Position numbers and translations under genes: made by a program. A stretch of 21,217 nt of DNA from IMG/VR virus record IMGVR_UViG_3300028548_005340, positions 1-21,217 of that record. One strand, 5' to 3'. Within the stretch, counting starts at the first letter, position 1. Each line of letters opens with the position of its first letter. Below are positions 229-14,449 of the stretch, piece after piece. The notes under the pieces were generated by a model. The model saw nothing but the letters and a program-made list of their open reading frames with translations. It was not told the DNA's origin and searched no databases. This stretch comes from a virus.

Positions 229-1596
229 ATGAGCAAAAACGAATCACTAATACAATATGGAACATCTTTCCAATCAAAAATCATATCATCGTTATTGGTA
301 AACAATAAGTTTATCCAAACCGTATATGATATCTTAGAAGTTAGTTACTTTGATAGTGACGCTAATAAATTTCTAATCACAGAAATCAGAAGATATTTTG
401 ACAAGTATAAAACACCACCTACGATGGAAGCATTGAAAGTGCAGATTGATGACTTGGATAACGATGTAATGAAGACAGCAATCGTAGATAGTTTAAGAAA
501 TGCTTGGAACTTCAGAGAATCACCAGACTTGGAATTCGTTCAAGAAAAAACATTAGAGTTTTGTAAGAATCAAGTTATCAAGAGTGCAATTATGCAATCA
601 GTTGAGTTATTGGATACACAAAAGTATGATGAAATCAAGGGTGTAATTGACAACGCAATGAAAGCCGGAGCCGAAAGAGATATCGGACACGAATATATGA
701 CTGGCTTTGAAGAACGAATGAGTTCATCAACGAGAGAAACCGTAGCAACCAAGTGGGATAGTATAAATGATTTAATGGAAGGTGGATTAGCAGGTGGAGA
801 ACTTGGAGTAGTAGTGGCACCAGCAGGTATTGGTAAATCGTGGACACTACAAGCAATCGGAGCAGACGCAGTCGCTAAAGGTAAAACCGTAATCCATTAT
901 ACATTAGAGTTAAATGCAGAATATGTAGGATTACGATATGATTGTATCGTAAGTGGACAACCTACTGGCAATTTACAATACTATAAAGAAGAAGTTTTAG
1001 CTAAAATAAATAAATTAAAGGGTAATTTGATTATCAAATATTATCCAACCAGAAGTGCAAGTGTTGCAACATTGGCAGGACACCTACAACAATGTGAATT
1101 ACAAGGTATAAAACCAGATATGGTATTGGTTGACTATGCAGATATTATGAAGTCTACGGTCAATTTCAAAGAAAAAAGACACCAAATTGGACACGTTTAT
1201 GAAGAACTAAGAGGTATGGCAGGAGAGTTTAACATACCGATATGGACAGCTTCACAAGCAAATCGTTCATCATTAGAGGAAGATGTGATTGACGCATCAA
1301 AAGTTTCAGAAGATTATTCAAAAGTTATGACAGCTGATTTTATTATGAGTATGTCAAGAAAAGTGGAAGACAAGATAGCAAACACGGGTAGATTCCACGT
1401 TATTAAGAATAGATTTGGACCAGATGGATTGACCTTTCCAGCTACCATTAATACCAATACAGGTTACATTCAAATATATGAAGCCAACACTCAAGAAGGA
1501 AAGCAAGCACAAGGCAAAATGGACAATGCAGAAGAGTATATGAGAAAAACCTTAGCACAAAAAAAGAAAGACTTCGACTCAGAAGGGTTTGAATAG
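229..1596 (+). CDS. 41: Replicative DNA helicase, DnaB / T4 gp41 family
   Basis: A 455-residue hexameric 5'-3' helicase of the RecA-fold SF4 class, which unwinds DNA at the phage replication fork. The N-terminal region (about 1-150) resembles the primase-interaction domain of gp41/DnaB. The ATPase core follows: Walker A APAGIGKS at 197-204, a catalytic Glu in the stretch YTLELNAE near 224-231, Walker B MVLVDYAD at 298-305, the H3-like motif IWTASQANR at 338-346 and the H4 region RFHVIKNRFGPDG at 388-400 with a probable arginine finger. The length is close to T4 gp41 (about 475). An AGAAGG ribosome site lies a few bases before ATG 229. The C-terminal tail (421-455) is charged and probably disordered. 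No primase gene (gp61) is in the window. Confidence 0.93.
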   Translation: MSKNESLIQYGTSFQSKIISSLLVNNKFIQTVYDILEVSYFDSDANKFLITEIRRYFDKYKTPPTMEALKVQIDDLDNDVMKTAIVDSLRNAWNFRESPDLEFVQEKTLEFCKNQVIKSAIMQSVELLDTQKYDEIKGVIDNAMKAGAERDIGHEYMTGFEERMSSSTRETVATKWDSINDLMEGGLAGGELGVVVAPAGIGKSWTLQAIGADAVAKGKTVIHYTLELNAEYVGLRYDCIVSGQPTGNLQYYKEEVLAKINKLKGNLIIKYYPTRSASVATLAGHLQQCELQGIKPDMVLVDYADIMKSTVNFKEKRHQIGHVYEELRGMAGEFNIPIWTASQANRSSLEEDVIDASKVSEDYSKVMTADFIMSMSRKVEDKIANTGRFHVIKNRFGPDGLTFPATINTNTGYIQIYEANTQEGKQAQGKMDNAEEYMRKTLAQKKKDFDSEGFE

Positions 1597-1631
1597 AACT
1601 TCAAAGAAAATCTTTCTAAAACTTCAAAGAA
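1597..1631 (+). repeat. 12-bp direct repeat in the spacer before nrdJ
   Basis: AACTTCAAAGAA occurs at 1597-1608 and again at 1620-1631, a 23-base period, i.e. about two helical turns. The copies start directly after the helicase stop codon. Between them is a short AAAGA/TCTTT inverted repeat (1604-1615). Spacing on one face of the helix fits an operator or activator site, but this is inferred from position alone. Confidence 0.5.
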
Positions 1632-1638
1632 TTTAAAA

Positions 1639-1678
1639 TATAATAGAATAAGATGAGTATATATTATACTTATAATAG
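1639..1678 (+). promoter_or_regulatory. Candidate promoter region of nrdJ (two TATAATAG boxes)
   Basis: TATAATAG is present at 1639-1646 and again at 1671-1678, each containing a perfect sigma70 -10 hexamer TATAAT. Neither has a recognisable TTGACA at 17 bases, so activation by a phage factor or a weak promoter is likely. The second box would give a leader of roughly 30 bases before the GTG start. AT richness makes chance -10 hits common, so confidence is limited. Confidence 0.4.
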
Positions 1679-1714
1679 GAACAAAAAGACAGACAAAACA
1701 TAGGAGAGTTTCAA

Positions 1715-3706
1715 GTGAAATTTAAGTTATCAGAAAATTTTATCAGTAAGTATAAAAGGAAAAAAGCACCATTTGGTTTTAACGGATTAGGCGAATTAGT
1801 CTATATGAGAACATATTCAAGACTTAAAGAAGATGGGAAGAACGAGCGTTGGTGGGAAACCGTTCAACGAGTAGTAGAGGGAACATATTCAATGCAAATG
1901 AATCACATTGAATCACACCAATTAGGTTGGAATCCTTGGCAAGCACAGAAATCTGCACAAGATATGTATGATAGAATATTCAATATGAAATTCTTACCAC
2001 CAGGTCGTGGTTTATGGGCTATGGGAACAGCAATCACAGAAGAAAAAGGATTGTATGCCGCACTAAACAATTGTGCTTTTGTATCAACGAAAACACTTAA
2101 AGAAGATTTAGCAAAACCATTTTGTTTCTTAATGGACGCCTCAATGTTAGGAGTTGGAGTAGGATTTGATACTAAAGGAGCGGGGGAAGTTCTCGTTAAA
2201 GAGATTGATAAGAAAAGAGATTCAGTTACATTTGAAATACCAGATACTCGTGAGGGTTGGGTAGAATCACTTAGACTTTTATTAGAAAGTTACTTTCACG
2301 GAACACAAAGAGTTGAGTTTGATTATTCATTAGTTAGACCAGCAGGAGAGCCAATCAAGGGCTTTGGTGGTGTATCAAGTGGACACGAACCATTAGAAGA
2401 AGTTCACGAAGATATCAGAAAAGTATTAGAGGGTAATGCAGGAAATCCAATTACAATAACAACAATCGTAGATATAATGAATTTGATTGGTAAATGTGTT
2501 GTAGCAGGTAATGTTAGACGAACAGCAGAAATTGTATTCGGTGACCCTGATTCAGATGAATACTTAGATTTAAAGAATTATAAAGTAAATCCACATAGAG
2601 ACCAATATGGTTGGACTTCAAACAATTCAGTATTTGCAGAACTCGGTATGGATTATACCGAAATAGCAAAAAGAATTGTAGATAATGGAGAACCTGGTCT
2701 TGCTTGGTTAGAAAATATGAGACATTATTCAAGAATGAAAAATGGTGGTGATAACAAAGACCATAGAGTAATGGGTGGTAATCCTTGTTTAGAACAATCA
2801 CTTGAATCATATGAGTTATGTTGTTTAGTGGAAACATTTCCAGACAACCACGATTCATTTGAGGATTATCAAAGAACATTAAAATATGCTTATTTGTATG
2901 CAAAAACCGTGACATTAGGAAGAACACATTGGTCAGATACCAACAGAGTTATGTTGAGAAATAGACGAATAGGTTGTTCAGTAAGTGGTGTCGCACAATT
3001 TATAACTAATCGTGGTTTAGATACTTTAAAGAATTGGTTAGAAGATGGATATGATACAATACAAGAATGGGATAAGATGTATAGTGATTGGTTCGCAGTT
3101 CCAAGAAGTATTAAAACAACATCAGTAAAACCAAGTGGTACGGTTTCTCTATTAGCAGGAGCAACACCTGGTTTACATTATCCAGAATCAAGATTCTATA
3201 CAAGAAGAATTAGAATATCAGTTAATTCAGAACTAATAGAACCATTAAATAAAGCAGGTTACACGATAGAGCCAGCATTCGGTTCAGAAGACTCAACATT
3301 AGTTGTTGAGGTGCCAGTAGATGTCGGTGAAGGAATAAGAACTGCAAAAGATTTATCAATATGGGAACAATTTAGTTTGGCTGCATTTATGCAACGACAT
3401 TGGGCAGATAACCAAGTTAGTTGTACTGCAACATTTGACCCTGAAACAGAAGGTCAAGAGATACCGCATGTATTGAATTATTATCAATATCATTTAAAAG
3501 GTATATCGTTACTACCAAGACACGATTGGGGAGCATATCCACAAATGCCTTATGAAGCTATTGATGAAAAGACATACAATAAGAATGTTAAAAAACTTGG
3601 TAAATTATCATTTGGTGTGATTAAGAACGAAGAAGCAGAAGTTGATAAGTTTTGTAACAACGATTCTTGTGAATTACCAGGTTTACCAGATGTAGAAGAA
3701 AATTAG
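1715..3706 (+). CDS. nrdJ: Adenosylcobalamin-dependent ribonucleoside-triphosphate reductase (class II)
   Basis: Converts ribonucleotides to deoxyribonucleotides for phage DNA synthesis, using coenzyme B12 to make the thiyl radical. The 663-residue protein follows the monomeric Lactobacillus leichmannii RTPR type: first redox Cys in NNCAFVS (C120), the GFGGVSSG loop (207-213), the active-site motif NPCLE with the radical Cys C348 and E350, the partner redox Cys C359 exactly 11 residues later as in RTPR, the PSGTVSLLAGATPG loop, and a C-terminal redox pair C647-x4-C652. No ATP-cone domain is seen. It starts at GTG 1715 behind AGGAGAG (1702-1708); the sequence KFKLSENFISKY follows, and no upstream ATG fits. 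It is somewhat shorter than RTPR (739). The gene needs host cobalamin, which matters for the receptor gene next door. Confidence 0.95.
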   Translation: MKFKLSENFISKYKRKKAPFGFNGLGELVYMRTYSRLKEDGKNERWWETVQRVVEGTYSMQMNHIESHQLGWNPWQAQKSAQDMYDRIFNMKFLPPGRGLWAMGTAITEEKGLYAALNNCAFVSTKTLKEDLAKPFCFLMDASMLGVGVGFDTKGAGEVLVKEIDKKRDSVTFEIPDTREGWVESLRLLLESYFHGTQRVEFDYSLVRPAGEPIKGFGGVSSGHEPLEEVHEDIRKVLEGNAGNPITITTIVDIMNLIGKCVVAGNVRRTAEIVFGDPDSDEYLDLKNYKVNPHRDQYGWTSNNSVFAELGMDYTEIAKRIVDNGEPGLAWLENMRHYSRMKNGGDNKDHRVMGGNPCLEQSLESYELCCLVETFPDNHDSFEDYQRTLKYAYLYAKTVTLGRTHWSDTNRVMLRNRRIGCSVSGVAQFITNRGLDTLKNWLEDGYDTIQEWDKMYSDWFAVPRSIKTTSVKPSGTVSLLAGATPGLHYPESRFYTRRIRISVNSELIEPLNKAGYTIEPAFGSEDSTLVVEVPVDVGEGIRTAKDLSIWEQFSLAAFMQRHWADNQVSCTATFDPETEGQEIPHVLNYYQYHLKGISLLPRHDWGAYPQMPYEAIDEKTYNKNVKKLGKLSFGVIKNEEAEVDKFCNNDSCELPGLPDVEEN

Positions 3707-3722
3707 ATTTCTTACAGGCAAG

Positions 3723-3748
3723 CAACACACCTGGATAAAAATGTGTTG
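3723..3748 (+). promoter_or_regulatory. Stem-loop in the nrdJ-receptor intergenic leader
   Basis: CAACACA (3723-3729) pairs perfectly with TGTGTTG (3742-3748) around a 12-base loop. The hairpin ends 12 bases before the AGGAG ribosome site of the receptor gene and contains the upstream GTG/TTG codons. It has no T-tract, so it is not a classical terminator; an mRNA-processing or stabilising element is possible. The 66-base leader is too short for a cobalamin riboswitch. Confidence 0.5.
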
Positions 3749-3772
3749 TCAACAAAAATAAGGAGAATGATT

Positions 3773-6514
3773 ATGAATTATCGTAATCTTTTAGCATCAC
3801 TATTGTTAATGTGTGGATTGTTTGCTCAATCTATTCACGGAACAATTGTTGATGTGAACTCAAAGCCCTTGAATGGAGCAAATGTTGTTGTTGTTGGAAC
3901 TAACTTAGGTGGAATATCAGATGAAAGCGGTACATTTCACATTGATTTAAGTTCTGGAACATATGACATAACAGTTTCTTTCATAGGGTATTCATCAATG
4001 ACTAAATCAGTTGTTGTTGGTGAGAAAATGTCTACATTGGAATTTGTCTTAGAACAAAACTTTGTAGTCCTTTCAGATGTTGAGGTATTAGCTTCTAGAG
4101 CATCTCAACAAACACCGGTAGCCTTCACTAATGTTTCAAAAGAAGATTTGGAATTAAGACTTGGTTCACAAGACCTTCCAATGATTCTTAACACAACACC
4201 AAGTGTTTACGCTACACAACAAGGTGGTGGTGCGGGTGATGCTCGTATCAACATTCGTGGTTTTAATCAAAGAAACATCGCAGTAATGATAAACGGAGTA
4301 CCACAAAACGATATGGAAAATGGTTGGGTATACTGGTCTAATTGGGACGGAGTTGGAGACACAGCTGCTTCAATACAAGTTCAAAGAGGACTATCAGCAG
4401 TAAACTTAGCAACGCCATCAATCGGTGGAACAATGAATGTCTTAACTGACCCAACTGCCTTTGAAAAAGGTGGTAAGTTCAAACAAGAAGCAGGAGAAGG
4501 TGGTTTTCTTAAAACTATGTTCAACTACAATACTGGTCTTATGTTTAATGACAAGTTAGCTTTGAGTGGAACTATTGTTCGTAAAACAGGTGATGGACTT
4601 GTTAACGGAACGTGGACTGACGCTTGGGCATACAACTTGGGAGCAAGTTTTGCAGTAAGTGACAAACAACGTTTTGAATTATATGCAATTGGTGCACCAC
4701 AAAGACACGGACAAAATCTATACAAGCAAAATATCGCTACTTACTCACAAGAGTTAGCTGGTGATGTTGACGGATACGATACTGACGCTTTCGCAGAAGG
4801 TGAAAAGTTCGAAACCGAAGCAGGTAGATTGTTCAATCAAAATGTCGCACCTATTGACCCATCATATACAGGTGAACAATACTGGTATATGTATGGAGCA
4901 AACACAACTAAGAGATATAGTTCAACTTTCTTAAATGAAAGAGAAAACTATTTCCATAAACCATTGGTTAACTTAAACCATTTCCTAGAATTAAATGACA
5001 AAACTCGTATGAGTTCAGTTGTTTATTGGAGTGGTGGTTCAGGTGGTGGAACAGGAACTTACGGAAGTGTATCAAGAATGCCAGCAGTTGAAGGCCAGAA
5101 ATGGTACGCATCTTCGCCGTGGACTTGGGATTGGAATGCTGAAATAGCACAAAATTCTGACAATGTGGATGAAAACTTCTCAACTGATGAAAATCGTTCA
5201 ACAGGAATACTTCGTAATTCTATCAATCGTCAAGATACATATGGTTTGATTAGTAAATTAAACTTTATTGTAAATGATGAATTAGAACTACAAATGGGTA
5301 TTGACTGGAGAGCAGCAACTATTGAACACGCTAGAGAAGTTCGTGATTTATTAGGTGGTGATTATTATGTTGACTATTCAGACGACAACTTTGAAGAAGG
5401 TAAAGTCGTTCGTTTAGGAGACGAGATAGCATACCACAATGATACAACTGTAGATTGGTTAGGTGGATTTGTTCAAGCAAATTACACTACTGACAAGATG
5501 AACATTTATGGAATGGGTGGACTATCAAGTATAGAATACTCTTACCAAGACCACTTCACAGTGGAAGATGAAGTCATCACAGCAGACCCAATTTCAACAT
5601 ACCAAGTTAAAGGTGGAGTAATGTATAATGTCAATGATGATTTGAGTGTATTTTTCAATACAGGAATGGTTGAGAAAGCACCTATTATGGACAATGTAAT
5701 TTACTTTGACGGAACTGTAGCAACAGACCCAGCAAATGAGAAATTTTTGCATAATGAGTTTGGTGTAAATTACAAGTTCGGTAAACTTGGATTAAATGCA
5801 AGTGCTTATAACACAGATTGGCAAGATAGAAACTTGACTAAGTCAGTAACGACTGGTCAAGGAGATTCAGGTGATACTGATGTTATCTTCCTAACAGGTG
5901 TTAATCAAAAGCATTCAGGTATAGAACTTGAAACTAACTATATGGTAAATGATATGTTAGATTTAATGTTCGTAGCATCTTTCGGTAATTGGAAATTTAA
6001 TGGTGACGCCAACGGAAATTATCAGGAAACTGAATATAATGACGCAGGCCAAGCAATTGGATACCAAACAACTGAATACGCTTACGCACTTGACGGATTG
6101 TATGTGGGAGATATGCCACAAACATCTTATATATTAGGAGTAACTCTTAAACCTATCAAGGATTTGAGTATACAAGCAATACATAAAATGTATGACAAAA
6201 ACTACTCTGACTGGTCGCCATCAGCTCGTGAATTTGACGGGACTAATGATGACGCAGACAGAAGTCAAGTTTGGGAAGCACCAAGCTATAACAGACTTGA
6301 TTTACATATGTCTTATAAACTTCCAAAAGTCAAAGACTTGGATATGATGCTAACCGCACATATTTTCAATGTTCTTGATGAAGTTTATGTACAAGACGCA
6401 GTCGATAATAGTCAATACAACGGTTTTGGTTCTAAAGTACACGCAGCACACAACGCTGAAGTATTCTTAGGAACACCAAGATACGCAAATATTGGATTAT
6501 CTATTGGATTCTAA
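3773..6514 (+). CDS. TonB-dependent outer-membrane receptor with carboxypeptidase-regulatory-like domain
   Basis: An outer-membrane active transporter of the TonB-dependent class, about 913 residues. The start is taken as ATG 3773: AGGAG at 3761-3765 is 7 bases upstream, and translation then opens with a classic signal peptide (MNYRNLLASLLLMCGLFAQS). In-frame codons upstream (GTG 3743, ATG 3767) would spoil it. Order of parts: signal peptide 1-20; CarboxypepD_reg-like beta domain about 21-95 (GTIVD, GISDESGTF, SFIGYSS); plug about 103-225 with NIRGFNQRNIAVMINGVPQ and VQRGLS...IGGTMNV; beta-barrel to the end, closing on Phe 913 (NIGLSIGF), the usual barrel terminus. No clear TonB box and no SusD partner were seen. 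The domain layout is typical of Bacteroidota/Marinimicrobia. Hand counts of ten 60-base lines gave about 39% G+C against about 32% in four lines of the polymerase, hinting at acquisition from a host. The substrate is unknown. Confidence 0.92.
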   Translation: MNYRNLLASLLLMCGLFAQSIHGTIVDVNSKPLNGANVVVVGTNLGGISDESGTFHIDLSSGTYDITVSFIGYSSMTKSVVVGEKMSTLEFVLEQNFVVLSDVEVLASRASQQTPVAFTNVSKEDLELRLGSQDLPMILNTTPSVYATQQGGGAGDARINIRGFNQRNIAVMINGVPQNDMENGWVYWSNWDGVGDTAASIQVQRGLSAVNLATPSIGGTMNVLTDPTAFEKGGKFKQEAGEGGFLKTMFNYNTGLMFNDKLALSGTIVRKTGDGLVNGTWTDAWAYNLGASFAVSDKQRFELYAIGAPQRHGQNLYKQNIATYSQELAGDVDGYDTDAFAEGEKFETEAGRLFNQNVAPIDPSYTGEQYWYMYGANTTKRYSSTFLNERENYFHKPLVNLNHFLELNDKTRMSSVVYWSGGSGGGTGTYGSVSRMPAVEGQKWYASSPWTWDWNAEIAQNSDNVDENFSTDENRSTGILRNSINRQDTYGLISKLNFIVNDELELQMGIDWRAATIEHAREVRDLLGGDYYVDYSDDNFEEGKVVRLGDEIAYHNDTTVDWLGGFVQANYTTDKMNIYGMGGLSSIEYSYQDHFTVEDEVITADPISTYQVKGGVMYNVNDDLSVFFNTGMVEKAPIMDNVIYFDGTVATDPANEKFLHNEFGVNYKFGKLGLNASAYNTDWQDRNLTKSVTTGQGDSGDTDVIFLTGVNQKHSGIELETNYMVNDMLDLMFVASFGNWKFNGDANGNYQETEYNDAGQAIGYQTTEYAYALDGLYVGDMPQTSYILGVTLKPIKDLSIQAIHKMYDKNYSDWSPSAREFDGTNDDADRSQVWEAPSYNRLDLHMSYKLPKVKDLDMMLTAHIFNVLDEVYVQDAVDNSQYNGFGSKVHAAHNAEVFLGTPRYANIGLSIGF

Positions 6515-6515
6515 T

Positions 6516-6551
6516 TAGTTATTGGGGCGAATTAATTTTCGCCCCTAACTA
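6516..6551 (+). terminator. Strong stem-loop after the receptor gene, probable terminator
   Basis: GGGGCGAA (6524-6531) pairs with TTCGCCCC (6538-6545), and outside it TAGTTA (6516-6521) pairs with TAACTA (6546-6551) across a two-base bulge. It begins right after the receptor stop codon and is the most GC-rich stem in any spacer. What follows is an A-tract, not the T-tract of a textbook intrinsic terminator, so termination could be inefficient or the element could protect the mRNA 3' end. Confidence 0.6.
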
Positions 6552-6561
6552 AAAAAAATAC

Positions 6562-6590
6562 TTGACATTAACAAAATTAATTTGTATATT
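6562..6590 (+). promoter_or_regulatory. Sigma70-like promoter for the DNA polymerase gene
   Basis: TTGACA (6562-6567) is followed after exactly 17 bases by TATATT (6585-6590), a near-consensus host sigma70 promoter. It lies directly downstream of the stem-loop and 35 bases before the polymerase TTG start. It is the best promoter match in the window and suggests early transcription of polymerase and the genes behind it by host RNA polymerase. The -10 overlaps one copy of the ATATTTAT spacer motif. Confidence 0.75.
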
Positions 6591-6625: not shown

Positions 6626-9127
6626 TTGTATCAAAATCTATGGTATGATGTTCGTAAGAACAAAATGCATTTGTGGGATGATTTAAAAGGTTATCTACAA
6701 ATACCATACAGAAAGTATGCCTATGTCAAAGATTCATCTGGACAACACATTAGTCTATATGGTGATAAATTGAAGAGAGTTACTTCATTCGATAAAGATG
6801 ACCCAACACTACACGAATCAGATATTCCACCAATGACAAGATTCTTGGTTGACCAATATGGAGATTCAGATGAAGTATCAACAGGCCATAGAGTTATGTT
6901 CTTTGATATTGAAGTAGAAGTAACTGAGGGATTCCCTGATGTTCAGAAAGCATACAATCCAATTACATCAATCGCATTATATGATTGTACAACAGAAAAG
7001 TATTTTACATATTGTTTTGACCCACACGAAAGAATTGAAAGTTACAAGAAAGGTAATGAAGAAGTAAAATTTTACAAAACAGAATATGAAATGTTAAACA
7101 AGTTTTATCAAAAGTATATGGAGATACAGCCAACAATCATTAGTGGTTGGAACTCGGAGTTCTTTGATATTCCTTATCTATATAATAGAGCAGTTAGGGT
7201 ATTGGGGCATAGTGTGGCAAAACTACTATCACCAATATCTAAAGTTATTTATTCTGATTACAAAAAGAAACATAATATAGTGGGTGTATCATCATTAGAT
7301 TATTTACAACTATATAGACAATTTACATTTACTCAACAATCAAGTTATCGTTTGGACTATATTGGCGAAATTGAAGTCGGTATGAAAAAGGTTTCCTATG
7401 AGGGAACTCTTAATGATTTATACGACAATGACTTACAGACATTTATAGATTATAATATCCGAGATGTAAAAATCTTGGTTGAATTGGATAGTAAATTAGA
7501 CTTAATTGAGATTGCTAGAGGTATTTCACACTTAGGACATACACCTTATGAAGATGTTAATATGTCATCAAGGTGGTTAGAGGGTGCTATATTGGTATAT
7601 TTAAAAAAGATTGGAGTGATATCGCCAAATAAACCACCAAGACCAAAGAAATTAAATGATGAGAAGTTCGCAGGAGCTTATGTTCAAGACCCACAATCTG
7701 GCAAACACGATTGGGTTTATGATTTAGATATCACGAGTATGTATCCAAGTGTTATTCGTTCATTAAATGTTTCACCAGAAACTAAAGTCGGTAAGGTTGA
7801 GGGTTGGAATCCAGAACAATTTATAAAATCAACCAACAAAAAAACTTATTCCCTTATGAATAAACAAGGTAAAGAAGTCGGTAAGATGACTGAAACCGAA
7901 TTAAAAGATTATTTTGATAACGCAAAAGTATCGATAGCATCCAACGGAGTAATGTACAGAACAGATAAACAAGGATTGATTCCAGCACTATTAACAAAGT
8001 GGTTCAATGAACGAGTAGAGATGAGAAAACTTGTTAAAAAATATAATGAACAGGGAGATAAAGCAAAGGAAGAATATTTTGATAGAAGACAATATATTCA
8101 GAAAATTATTCTAAACTCATTGTATGGTGTATTGGGATTACCAGTATTTAGATTCTATGATTTAGATAATGCAGAAGCCACTACATTAACAGGCCAATCA
8201 TTGATTAAATTTAGTAAAAAGATTACAAACCATTTCTACAATAATGAACTCGGAACCAATGAAGACTATGTTATCTATATTGATACAGACTCTATTTTTG
8301 CATCAGCAGTTCCATTGATTAAAAAAAGATTTCCAGACCAAGAATTATCAGAAACAATGATGACACAAAGAATTATGGAAATTTGTCAAGAAGTTCAAGA
8401 TTATTTAAATACGAGTTATCATTACTTTGCTAAGAAATTTTGTAATGTAGATGAACACGTGTTTGATATTAAACAAGAGGTAATCGCAAAGACAGGTTTA
8501 TTCGTAACGAAGAAACGATATGGATTACGAATCATTAATGACGCAGGTAGAAAAGTAAATAAGATTCACGTTAAAGGATTGGATACGGTTCGTAGTAATT
8601 TTGCAGTCGCTATGAAAGATTTATTATCAAAAGTATTAGATGATATATTAGCAGATGTTCCAAAGGAAAAGATTGACGAACGAGTATCATTGTTCAAAAG
8701 AAATATGCACAATCTATCTTATGAGGTAATGGCAAATCCTATCGGAGTAAAAGGTATTGGTAAATATATTTCCAGAGATTCAGAAACATCATTTGCTAAA
8801 TACAAAAAGGGTGCGCCAGTCCACGTTAAAGCAGCAATCAATTACAATTCATTGATTGACCATTGGTATGAGGGTAAACGATATGAAAAGATATCCAACG
8901 GAACAAAGATAAGGTGGGTGTATTTGAAAGAGAATTCATTTGGATTTGACGCAATTGCATTCAAAGGACACGAAGACCCACGAGAAATATTAGAATTGAT
9001 TAAAAACCATATAGACCACAACAAAATGTATGAACAAGCTATGAGTAAGAAACTCGGTATGTTTTATAAAGCAATGCATTGGGGTGGTGTAGAAGATAAG
9101 ACAACATCAATGAATAGGTTTTTTTAA
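6626..9127 (+). CDS. 43: Family B DNA polymerase with 3'-5' exonuclease, T4 gp43-like
   Basis: The replicative phage polymerase, 833 residues (T4 gp43 has 898). Exonuclease motifs: Exo I FFDIEVE (D94, E96), Exo II NSEFFDIPY (D181), Exo III YNIRD (D280). Polymerase motifs: A DLDITSMYPSV (D366/D368), B KIILNSLYG (493-501) and C YIDTDS (551-556), then KKRYGLR in the thumb-proximal part. All catalytic residues are intact, so it should be active and proofreading. The C-terminus ends MNRFF, a plausible clamp-binding tail. The start is TTG 6626, with AGGAG at 6615-6619 six bases upstream; the next residues (YQNLWYDVRKNKMHLWDDL) match the start of gp43-type enzymes, so a later ATG would truncate it. 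The stop codon overlaps the next ATG (TAATG). Confidence 0.96.
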   Translation: MYQNLWYDVRKNKMHLWDDLKGYLQIPYRKYAYVKDSSGQHISLYGDKLKRVTSFDKDDPTLHESDIPPMTRFLVDQYGDSDEVSTGHRVMFFDIEVEVTEGFPDVQKAYNPITSIALYDCTTEKYFTYCFDPHERIESYKKGNEEVKFYKTEYEMLNKFYQKYMEIQPTIISGWNSEFFDIPYLYNRAVRVLGHSVAKLLSPISKVIYSDYKKKHNIVGVSSLDYLQLYRQFTFTQQSSYRLDYIGEIEVGMKKVSYEGTLNDLYDNDLQTFIDYNIRDVKILVELDSKLDLIEIARGISHLGHTPYEDVNMSSRWLEGAILVYLKKIGVISPNKPPRPKKLNDEKFAGAYVQDPQSGKHDWVYDLDITSMYPSVIRSLNVSPETKVGKVEGWNPEQFIKSTNKKTYSLMNKQGKEVGKMTETELKDYFDNAKVSIASNGVMYRTDKQGLIPALLTKWFNERVEMRKLVKKYNEQGDKAKEEYFDRRQYIQKIILNSLYGVLGLPVFRFYDLDNAEATTLTGQSLIKFSKKITNHFYNNELGTNEDYVIYIDTDSIFASAVPLIKKRFPDQELSETMMTQRIMEICQEVQDYLNTSYHYFAKKFCNVDEHVFDIKQEVIAKTGLFVTKKRYGLRIINDAGRKVNKIHVKGLDTVRSNFAVAMKDLLSKVLDDILADVPKEKIDERVSLFKRNMHNLSYEVMANPIGVKGIGKYISRDSETSFAKYKKGAPVHVKAAINYNSLIDHWYEGKRYEKISNGTKIRWVYLKENSFGFDAIAFKGHEDPREILELIKNHIDHNKMYEQAMSKKLGMFYKAMHWGGVEDKTTSMNRFF

Positions 9128-9906
9128 TGAGTGAATATGTAAAATCAGATTCAGTTTACATTGAAGAGATTCCAAGTTCAGTAGCCAAGAAGATGATTAT
9201 TGAAAAACACTACACTCACGCATTTAGTATGTGTAGATATGCTTTGGGTATTTATTATGTAGGGGATAAAGACCATAAGTTCTATGATGAGAAAGAAAAG
9301 AAACTAATTGGTTGTATGACTTATGGATATCCAGTTGGTCGTTCAGCAATTAAGTCTATGATTCCTACATTACAAAAGGAAGAAGTATTAGAATTAACAA
9401 GATTATATATAGATGATGGAAACGGAAAGAACATTGAATCACTATCATTGGGTAAATCATTTAAATGGTTGAAACAAAATGCACCAAAAGTTCAAATGTT
9501 AATCAGTTATGCAGACCCTGAACAAATGCACTTAGGAGTAATTTATCAGGCAACAAATTGGTTGTATCAAGATTGTCGTGATATACAATTAATGCCAAAT
9601 TATTCAGTATCGTTAGGTGAACCACACAAATGGATACATAGTAGGACGGTATTCTCAAAGTGGGGTAGTCATAATGTAGAACATTTAAAAGAACATATAG
9701 GACAGACATTTTTTAGGAAACGAGAAGCACCTAAACACAGATACTTATATTTCTTGGGTTCATCAAGAGAAAACAAAAAGATGAGAACACAATTAAAACA
9801 CGATTGTAAAGCATACCCAAAGAACAAAAAAGAATTCATACCACCAATTGAAAAATATGAAGTGGAGAATATAAATAAAAACAAGTCTATGGAAAAATTT
9901 ATTTGA
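9127..9906 (+). CDS. Mom-like DNA adenine-modification acyltransferase (GNAT-like)
   Basis: A 259-residue protein resembling the Mom family of phage DNA-modification enzymes. Phage Mu Mom converts adenine in DNA to an N6-carbamoylmethyl derivative that blocks restriction. Visible hallmarks are EKHYTHAFS (26-34), a core strand LIGCMTYGYPVG (60-71), ELTRLYIDDG (89-98) and the very characteristic SYADPEQMHLGVIYQATNWLY (127-147). The basic C-terminal tail (about 195-259) is Lys/Arg-rich and could bind DNA. It is translationally coupled to the polymerase (TAATG at 9125-9129), which suggests it acts during replication. The identification rests on motif recall; the exact modification and the target sequence cannot be inferred. 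A general GNAT acetyltransferase is the alternative. Confidence 0.75.
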   Translation: MSEYVKSDSVYIEEIPSSVAKKMIIEKHYTHAFSMCRYALGIYYVGDKDHKFYDEKEKKLIGCMTYGYPVGRSAIKSMIPTLQKEEVLELTRLYIDDGNGKNIESLSLGKSFKWLKQNAPKVQMLISYADPEQMHLGVIYQATNWLYQDCRDIQLMPNYSVSLGEPHKWIHSRTVFSKWGSHNVEHLKEHIGQTFFRKREAPKHRYLYFLGSSRENKKMRTQLKHDCKAYPKNKKEFIPPIEKYEVENINKNKSMEKFI

Positions 9907-13781: not shown

Positions 13782-13795
13782 TTGATATTTATATG
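13782..13795 (+). promoter_or_regulatory. ATATTTAT spacer motif touching the GIY-YIG start codon
   Basis: TTGATATTTATATG: the core 13785-13792 ends directly at ATG 13793. If it acts as a -10 element here, the transcript would be nearly leaderless from the second ATG (13799) or would start inside the gene. It could instead be a remnant of the insertion boundary. Confidence 0.3.
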
Positions 13796-14449
13796 TATAT
13801 GAAACATTATGTATATAAATTAAAAGAAACAAAAACAGACGAGTTTTACTACGGAGTAAGAACTTGCGAATGCAATCCAACAGATGATAACTATTTTGGT
13901 AGTATGAAATCTTGGAAACCAAATATAGATAATCTAAAAAAAGAAATAATTTCTGAGTTCAATAGTAGAGAAGAAGCATCAAAGTATGAATCTAAATTGA
14001 TTGAAGAAAACATTAAACATCCATTAAATAGGAATTATCATACAGGAGCAGGATTAGCATTTTATGGTAAAGAGCATTCTGAAAATACAAAAGAAAAGAT
14101 AAAGGAAAGTTTAGTGGGTAAGCATAAAGGTGAGTCAAATCCATTTTACGGTAAACAACATACTGAGAGTTCAAGAGAAAAGATTAGATTAGCTCAACTT
14201 GGAGTTAAACATAAAGAAGAAACAAAGAAAAAGATGAGTGAGTCTGCAAAAGAGATAGACAGAACAAACTATAACTTTAAAAGTTTTCAAAAAAGAAAAA
14301 AGATTATGTTTTCAGAAACTGGAGAGATATTTATTTCTATATACCAAGCAGGTAAATCACTCGGAGTATCGAGGTCTTATATCAGAAAACACATCGGAAC
14401 AAAATTTAGGTTATTAAATGAAGCAAAAAACACTATTCGACCACATTAA
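13793..14449 (+). CDS. GIY-YIG homing endonuclease, Seg/I-TevI type
   Basis: 218 residues. The N-terminal GIY-YIG nuclease domain shows HYVYKLKE (5-12) and FYYGVR (18-23), with R23 and a downstream Glu in the ESKLIEEN helix (66-73) as catalytic candidates. DNA-binding modules follow: three NUMOD3-like repeats, GKEHSENTKEKI (92-103), GKQHTESSREKI (120-131) and GVKHKEETKKKM (137-148), then a NUMOD1-like helix-turn-helix (about 171-197, IYQAGKSLGVSRSYIRKHI). Such free-standing enzymes cut a related phage lacking the gene and spread by repair. The start is ATG 13793 or 13799; neither has a ribosome site. The last 32 bases lie within the gp62 gene in another frame, a sign that it inserted right at the 5' end of gp62. 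Confidence 0.9.
   Translation: MYMKHYVYKLKETKTDEFYYGVRTCECNPTDDNYFGSMKSWKPNIDNLKKEIISEFNSREEASKYESKLIEENIKHPLNRNYHTGAGLAFYGKEHSENTKEKIKESLVGKHKGESNPFYGKQHTESSREKIRLAQLGVKHKEETKKKMSESAKEIDRTNYNFKSFQKRKKIMFSETGEIFISIYQAGKSLGVSRSYIRKHIGTKFRLLNEAKNTIRPH

Follow-up and report, generated by a model that had tools for sequence, protein, structure and literature searches.

The receptor gene and its neighbours

The window considered here is a whole virus record of 21,217 bases. It encodes a TonB-dependent receptor placed, as the original prediction had it, between a ribonucleotide reductase and a DNA polymerase; TIGR02505 and phrog_262 confirm the two neighbours. We call this position site A. The features of the locus are listed below with their evidence.

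1715 to 3706, plus strand: nrdJ, class II ribonucleotide reductase, left neighbour at site A (TIGR02505)
3714 to 3749, plus strand: H-type RNA pseudoknot in the leader (covariation, leader search, CM)
3760 to 3765, plus strand: Shine-Dalgarno site AAGGAG, 7 nt 5' of the ATG (sequence)
3773 to 6514, plus strand: TonB-dependent receptor, 913 amino acids, ATG start (Pfam, fold, 300 viral relatives)
3773 to 3829, plus strand: signal peptide, residues 1-19 (sequence; helix at 4-13 in the AlphaFold model)
3833 to 4084, plus strand: CarboxypepD_reg-like domain, residues 21-104 (CarbopepD_reg_2, E 4e-17; omega 0.36)
4058 to 4105, plus strand: TonB-box-like stretch and linker, residues 96-111, ...LSDVEVLASRAS (putative role, from its position)
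4106 to 4468, plus strand: plug domain, residues 112-232 (Pfam Plug; omega 0.055)
4469 to 6511, plus strand: beta barrel of about 22 strands with a terminal Phe (Pfam, AlphaFold model, fold comparison)
6515 to 6552, plus strand: GC-rich hairpin closing the cassette (first 80 nt fold at -21.7 kcal/mol)
6562 to 6590, plus strand: gene 43 promoter, TTGACA-17-TATATT (11/12 match; present at empty sites too)
6626 to 9127, plus strand: DNA polymerase gp43, family B, right neighbour at site A (phrog_262)

That this is a full receptor with signal peptide, CarboxypepD_reg-like domain, plug, barrel and terminal Phe is borne out by Pfam, fold and sequence. The Plug match (E 2e-14, residues 112-220) and the TonB_dep_Rec barrel match (E 3e-14, residues 423-867) are both above the Pfam cut-off. 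The AlphaFold model has a mean pLDDT of 74.6, with a confident barrel and a poor plug region. Compared with solved TonB-dependent transporters it gives Z of about 21 over 550-570 residues. FoxA, FecA, PqqU and FhuA are the top matches and BtuB is at about 20. Predicted viral structures gave one good match, a SusC-like receptor from an uncultured marine phage. A LEVLASRA-type stretch at residues about 103-110 is strongly conserved in viral and host copies, and E104, A107, S108 and R109 are invariant in 69 viral and host receptor sequences. Its position makes this stretch a candidate TonB box.

The strong ribosome site claimed for the gene is indeed there as AAGGAG, and a Shine-Dalgarno-like site is found in all 97 of 97 unique leaders. 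The likely start of the receptor is the ATG at 3773 and not the GTG at 3743, which lies within an RNA stem of the leader. The NrdJ encoded upstream is a class II (adenosylcobalamin-type) ribonucleotide reductase by TIGR02505.

Distribution and donor

One can imagine that the locus is an assembly chimera of host and phage DNA, but we give this practically no chance. Contigs of about 70 datasets share the gene order, with identities of 62-100%. IMG/VR scans returned 300 stretches encoding receptor relatives, and the best 80 of these 300 are 69-100% identical and come from about 70 datasets, a number counted by hand from contig names. nrdJ lies directly 5' of the receptor in 114 of the 117 loci with enough upstream sequence, mostly with a gap of 30-128 nt. 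Among loci fetched with gp43 that have more than 400 nt upstream, the receptor is at the same place in 58 of 58; loci are shared between queries, and the nrdJ and gp43 counts are not fully independent. The junctions were checked without reads, by their recurrence. Both are found at 100% identity in datasets 3300028548 and 3300028925, the left one (nrdJ-receptor) also at 100% in 3300027672, and further contigs carry the nrdJ-receptor-gp43 junctions at 94% and down to 62-70%. Since the junctions recur in other contigs over this whole range, a chimera is excluded. Many further viral genomes have the receptor between these neighbours, and the refuting condition that came with the original prediction does not apply.

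Four of the loci (L043, L058, L060 and L061) have polymerases of only 26-27% identity, yet their nrdJ is 79-82% and their receptor 70-72% identical. This implies that the nrdJ-receptor pair crosses deep phage divisions. It must also be noted that the nrdJ matches of some loci are spread out, over about 4.5 kb in L013 (1396-5866) and 3 kb in L123, L124 and L152 (915-3908), and these genes may hold an intein, intron or insertion. The gp43 of L277 (G172:C1:19566-22033) is in two consecutive ORFs that match query residues 2-512 and 513-822.

The receptor was predicted to be host-derived and no part of the T4 core, and its cellular relatives support this. They occupy 60 bacterial or archaeal genome loci, nearly all of them Candidatus Marinimicrobia (Neomarinimicrobiota, SAR406). 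L160 (a Flavobacteriales MAG) and L206 (a Euryarchaeota MAG) were rejected as non-Marinimicrobia hosts because both are mis-binned phage contigs. The full-length ones among these loci have 53-71% identity, and the conserved, mostly single-copy Marinimicrobia receptor lies mostly at 56-72%. A close match is present in 83 of 149 sampled Marinimicrobia genomes and is nearly always single; each of seven genomes inspected in full has one close orthologue and weaker paralogues. The host receptor shares the domain order and conserved core of the phage copy, and the plug consensus of the two is the same in 93% of columns. The host gene differs in having no pseudoknot leader and a higher GC3. It stands alone among housekeeping genes (SRAP, DNA polymerase III alpha, dNK, Lon, U32 and similar), with no substrate operon or SusD partner beside the sampled orthologues, so this neighbourhood was rejected as a guide to the substrate.

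In the phylogeny the viral receptors form one clade within the Marinimicrobia family (SH-aLRT 99-100). This placement makes the receptor host-derived in the sense used for auxiliary metabolic genes, and it names Marinimicrobia (SAR406) as the donor lineage. A bacterial gene that is 72% identical, L161, nests in the viral clade on a long branch, and a topology that separates the viruses from it is rejected (p-AU 0.012). It may be a return from phage to host, or it may mark the true donor lineage. Other copies in its family, which has small genomes (0.4-1.0 Mb), are only 35-38% identical. The L161 contig itself carries two tandem receptors (986-4266) with nearly identical signal peptides, and it is the first that falls inside the viral clade.

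It is the receptor gene alone that points to Marinimicrobia as the probable host of these phages. A search of 245 Marinimicrobia genomes for phage genes gave only polymerase relatives at 34-36% identity in 3 genomes. Base composition does not help. The higher G+C of the receptor had been read as a sign of host origin, and overall GC is indeed 0.373 against 0.322 for gp43. However, third-position GC is 0.256 against 0.252, with host copies at 0.34. Since GC3 is equal in the receptor and gp43, GC is uninformative on recent host origin and that part of the prediction falls.

The cassette and its leader

The original prediction did not include the leader RNA, the swapping of alleles or the movement of a cassette between two sites. 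The receptor is not bound to one place. Among 61 loci fetched with nrdJ and long enough on the downstream side, the receptor comes next in 48; in the other 13 gp43 stands immediately after nrdJ and its promoter-like sequence is retained. With 13 related phages lacking a receptor at the nrdJ-gp43 site, some relatives may be able to do without it. At a second place, site B, the receptor lies behind a small heat-shock-like protein and a membrane protein of roughly 280 amino acids, both named by us from their sequences. In two long records whose receptor is at site A, the gene for this membrane protein lies elsewhere and has no receptor beside it. Each long receptor-bearing record has one receptor. 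Near-identical alleles occupy both sites, as in L333 (site A) and L337 (site B) with 97% protein identity. The DNA common to the two sites starts about 60-105 nt before the ATG, which includes the pseudoknot, and stops about 10-50 nt past the stop codon at the GC-rich hairpin, which is present in 14 of the 14 homologous spacers listed. From these alignments we conclude that leader, receptor and 3' hairpin move together as a cassette of roughly 2.9 kb with two genome sites, and that empty sites exist. A TTCRCA box (often TTTCRCATAC) lies shortly 5' of the pseudoknot in 65 of 98 leaders, for example in L333 upstream of 5001, and 44 of 45 plus-strand matches to TTTCRCATAC are receptor leaders. 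As a cassette border it was rejected, since a related box is in only about two thirds of leaders.

Phages that are nearly identical elsewhere also swap receptor alleles. In a set of 56 phages that have nrdJ, receptor and gp43, dnaB and gp43 give concordant protein distances (Spearman 0.88), but receptor distances follow neither backbone gene (0.22 with dnaB, 0.18 with gp43). L075 and L333 differ by 4-5% in dnaB, nrdJ and gp43 and by 29% in the receptor. The window-like L001 and L005 go the other way, with receptors 91% identical and polymerases 58%. For L005 and L023 synonymous distance is 0.26-0.30 in the receptor versus 0.8-1.6 in the flanks. Similarity changes stepwise close to where the plug begins and at the stop codon. 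Recombination exchanges the barrel alleles, probably with the highly conserved plug as its anchor.

The stretch that separates the nrdJ stop from the ATG contains the consensus NYWGG-CAGNN-GRCRCA-CCWRN-NNAAAAA-TGYGYC, which forms two interleaved helices. In the window these are P1 (3715-3718 with 3730-3733, CAGG/CCTG) and P2 (3723-3729 with 3742-3748, CAACACA/TGTGTTG), with an A-rich loop at 3734-3741. The pseudoknot ends about 11 nt 5' of the Shine-Dalgarno site. A search by base pairing recovers it from 96 of 98 unique leaders, compared with 6 of 98 after shuffling, and the remaining 2 are recognisable variants. Over 63 distinct sequences 96.8% of cells are paired. Six pairs changed on both sides, in 55 cells versus 12.1 in shuffles, and sliding the register destroys the signal; some sequences were retrieved by a pattern that fixes some P2 bases, and the P1 changes and the P2 A-U/G-C change were free. 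The CM matches the window with 48.7 bits, the window sequence being itself a member of the model.

The pseudoknot goes with the receptor. A pattern-only scan of IMG/VR, blind to the receptor, found 118 occurrences. A receptor follows 111 of the 112 that have downstream sequence, and the remaining one has only 106 nt, which begin with a receptor-like signal peptide. Records of 49-132 kb have at most one pseudoknot each, and a 58-kb record without a receptor has none. We therefore rejected it as a general phage element, as it occurs at most once per record and only before the receptor gene. It was not found as a conserved motif in 37 host leaders, nor at a convincing score in 244 Marinimicrobia genomes; the best host match (G212, 30 bits) was rejected because its P1 partner is missing. 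Rfam has no family at gathering for the leader, and only unrelated matches at chance level appear at E up to 10. The leader pseudoknot looks new on this comparison.

The nrdJ-receptor gap has no promoter signal above the shuffled level, and gp43 promoter scores in 50 relatives average 10.1 versus 8.4 shuffled. A gap without a promoter and a conserved promoter before gp43 make it likely that the receptor is co-transcribed with nrdJ. The simplest reading would be early co-transcription with nrdJ and then control of the mRNA through the pseudoknot, which most likely works on translation or stability and may respond either to a small cargo-linked ligand or to a factor of the phage. It is possible, though we would not bet on it, that the pseudoknot is a new class of mRNA switch that senses a ligand or a phage protein, has one cargo gene and makes this a self-regulated nutrient-import cassette.

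A parallel is the translational operator of T4 gene 32, in which repression starts from a pseudoknot that nucleates it and the ssDNA-binding protein is controlled by way of UUAAA repeats (PMC535899). Both are H-type pseudoknots 5' of a ribosome site in the mRNA of a T4-like phage. Unlike the T4 operator, the leader pseudoknot precedes an outer-membrane receptor gene rather than one for an ssDNA-binding protein (111 of 112 matches), occurs once per genome, and differs in its loops and downstream sequence.

Function of the receptor

We argue that the receptor is a working TonB-dependent importer that was taken from Marinimicrobia and kept under selection, and we would give this reading a probability of roughly 60%. 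Whole-gene omega between relatives and the window is 0.11-0.28, so the gene is kept under selection in phages, as is asked of an auxiliary metabolic gene. Regional omega was estimated from 35 disjoint close pairs with regions assigned from the AlphaFold model. The plug is the most constrained region (0.055), followed by the strands (0.116), the extracellular loops (0.138) and the TonB-box region (0.165), with the signal peptide and CarboxypepD domain the least constrained (0.355). The loops are not hypervariable and are under nearly the constraint of the strands, with loop and strand borders that are approximate since they come from predicted secondary structure. A decoy would need no plug and an arms race at the loops should give fast loops. 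Both considerations speak for transport, and purifying selection on plug, TonB-box region and loops makes a working importer the best reading.

The original prediction had offered import of a scarce nutrient or exclusion of rivals. Import is favoured by the constraint just described, and exclusion keeps some standing, since an arms race at the surface would also be expected to bring allele swapping. TonB-dependent receptors often serve as receptors for phages, and a new one could displace or mask those of the host and so exclude rival phages or bacteriocins with no import at all. The 29% receptor difference between L075 and L333 and the poor tracking of the backbone both fit. However, masking alone requires neither a plug nor a TonB box, and the constrained plug and slow loops speak against it. 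Exclusion proteins such as Llp block a phage docking site, whereas a full receptor copy adds one. We consider surface remodelling unlikely. Less probable still is a cobalamin receptor that supplies the adjacent B12-dependent ribonucleotide reductase. The receptor does adjoin nrdJ in nearly all loci, BtuB is among the fold matches (tied with siderophore receptors), and a search without a positive control did not find the phage NrdJ in 61 Marinimicrobia genomes, so that a new need for B12 may arise from the phage. However, neither the window nor the surroundings of 22 host orthologues have a cobalamin riboswitch, there is no BtuB family among the NCBIfam matches, and the barrel of about 680 residues exceeds that of BtuB. 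At site B the receptor is not next to nrdJ, and in some phages nrdJ has no receptor adjoining. Cobalamin import for NrdJ was rejected on the riboswitch, the family match and the second site. Nor does the fold name another cargo, as siderophore, citrate, PQQ, haem and cobalamin transporters all score Z of about 20, and it was rejected as a guide to the substrate. A passive passenger with no function for the phage would account for a gene that moves between two sites and is missing from its site in some relatives. This is very improbable given purifying selection on every domain, with omega well below 1, long frames that are intact in the examined copies, and a covarying leader of its own.

The importer reading would run as follows. 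An ancestor of the phage group acquired the receptor from Marinimicrobia and selection retained it. It is probably made early in infection off the nrdJ transcript. Host Sec and BAM would export it and host TonB would energise it. The phage receptor would then keep or raise uptake of a scarce substrate once the host's own receptor is no longer renewed. The cassette of pseudoknot leader, ribosome site, gene and closing hairpin would shift between its two genome sites. Both transport and its benefit to the phage are what we infer from the sequences.

A phage TonB receptor is not new in itself. According to PMC9723777, the marine megaphage Mar_Mega_1 and LR745206 have an annotated SusC-like TonB receptor, which is proposed to raise uptake during infection. 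Only the plug region of deposited megaphage genomes aligns to our receptor, at 29-34% identity. Those genomes exceed 600 kb, and the passages of PMC9723777 that were consulted mention neither cassette nor leader. SusC/RagA proteins (TIGR04056) also have an N-terminal CarboxypepD_reg domain and a plug, but the phage receptor scores 65.0 bits against a cut-off of 368.25 and has no SusD-like lipoprotein beside it, its neighbours being nrdJ and gp43. A SusCD glycan locus was rejected, as there is no SusD at the phage locus or in the sampled host neighbourhoods. The closest solved protein by sequence is XusA, a Bacteroides xenosiderophore transporter (PDB 9GBC, PMC13142918). It too has a 22-strand barrel, a plug and an N-terminal carboxypeptidase-like domain (PMC13142918), but the sequence similarity is confined to residues 4-233, and no XusB-type lipoprotein gene adjoins the phage receptor. 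Among 50,697 deposited phage records there is no close full-length match, and full-length relatives are limited to two gut contigs that are 30% identical. In open-licence papers on phage TonB receptors the megaphage report was the sole match. As far as that literature was searched, what is new is a lineage-wide, selected and mobile receptor cassette with a pseudoknot leader in T4-like phages of probable Marinimicrobia hosts.

Most described auxiliary genes work inside the cell. That a large phage group has retained a receptor suggests that import across the outer membrane can come under phage control during infection, and that uncultured T4-like marine phages with the receptor would manage the imports of the infected cell. 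Very little is known of the phages of Marinimicrobia, a widespread group that is essentially uncultured. The cassette makes it testable which nutrient limits phage production in such cells, and the pseudoknot offers both an entry to the regulation and, at 34 nt, a marker for such phages in metagenomes.

On the 3' side of gp43 the window continues with Mom, then the sliding clamp and clamp loader. The Mom-like DNA modification protein (9127-9906, between gp43 and the sliding clamp) differs in position or presence among relatives. At 13793-14446 a NUMOD3-type (homing-endonuclease-like) ORF follows a free-standing Hint domain. It is present in the window and L082 and missing in L081, which are elsewhere 99-100% identical, and it is evidently a recently mobile insertion.
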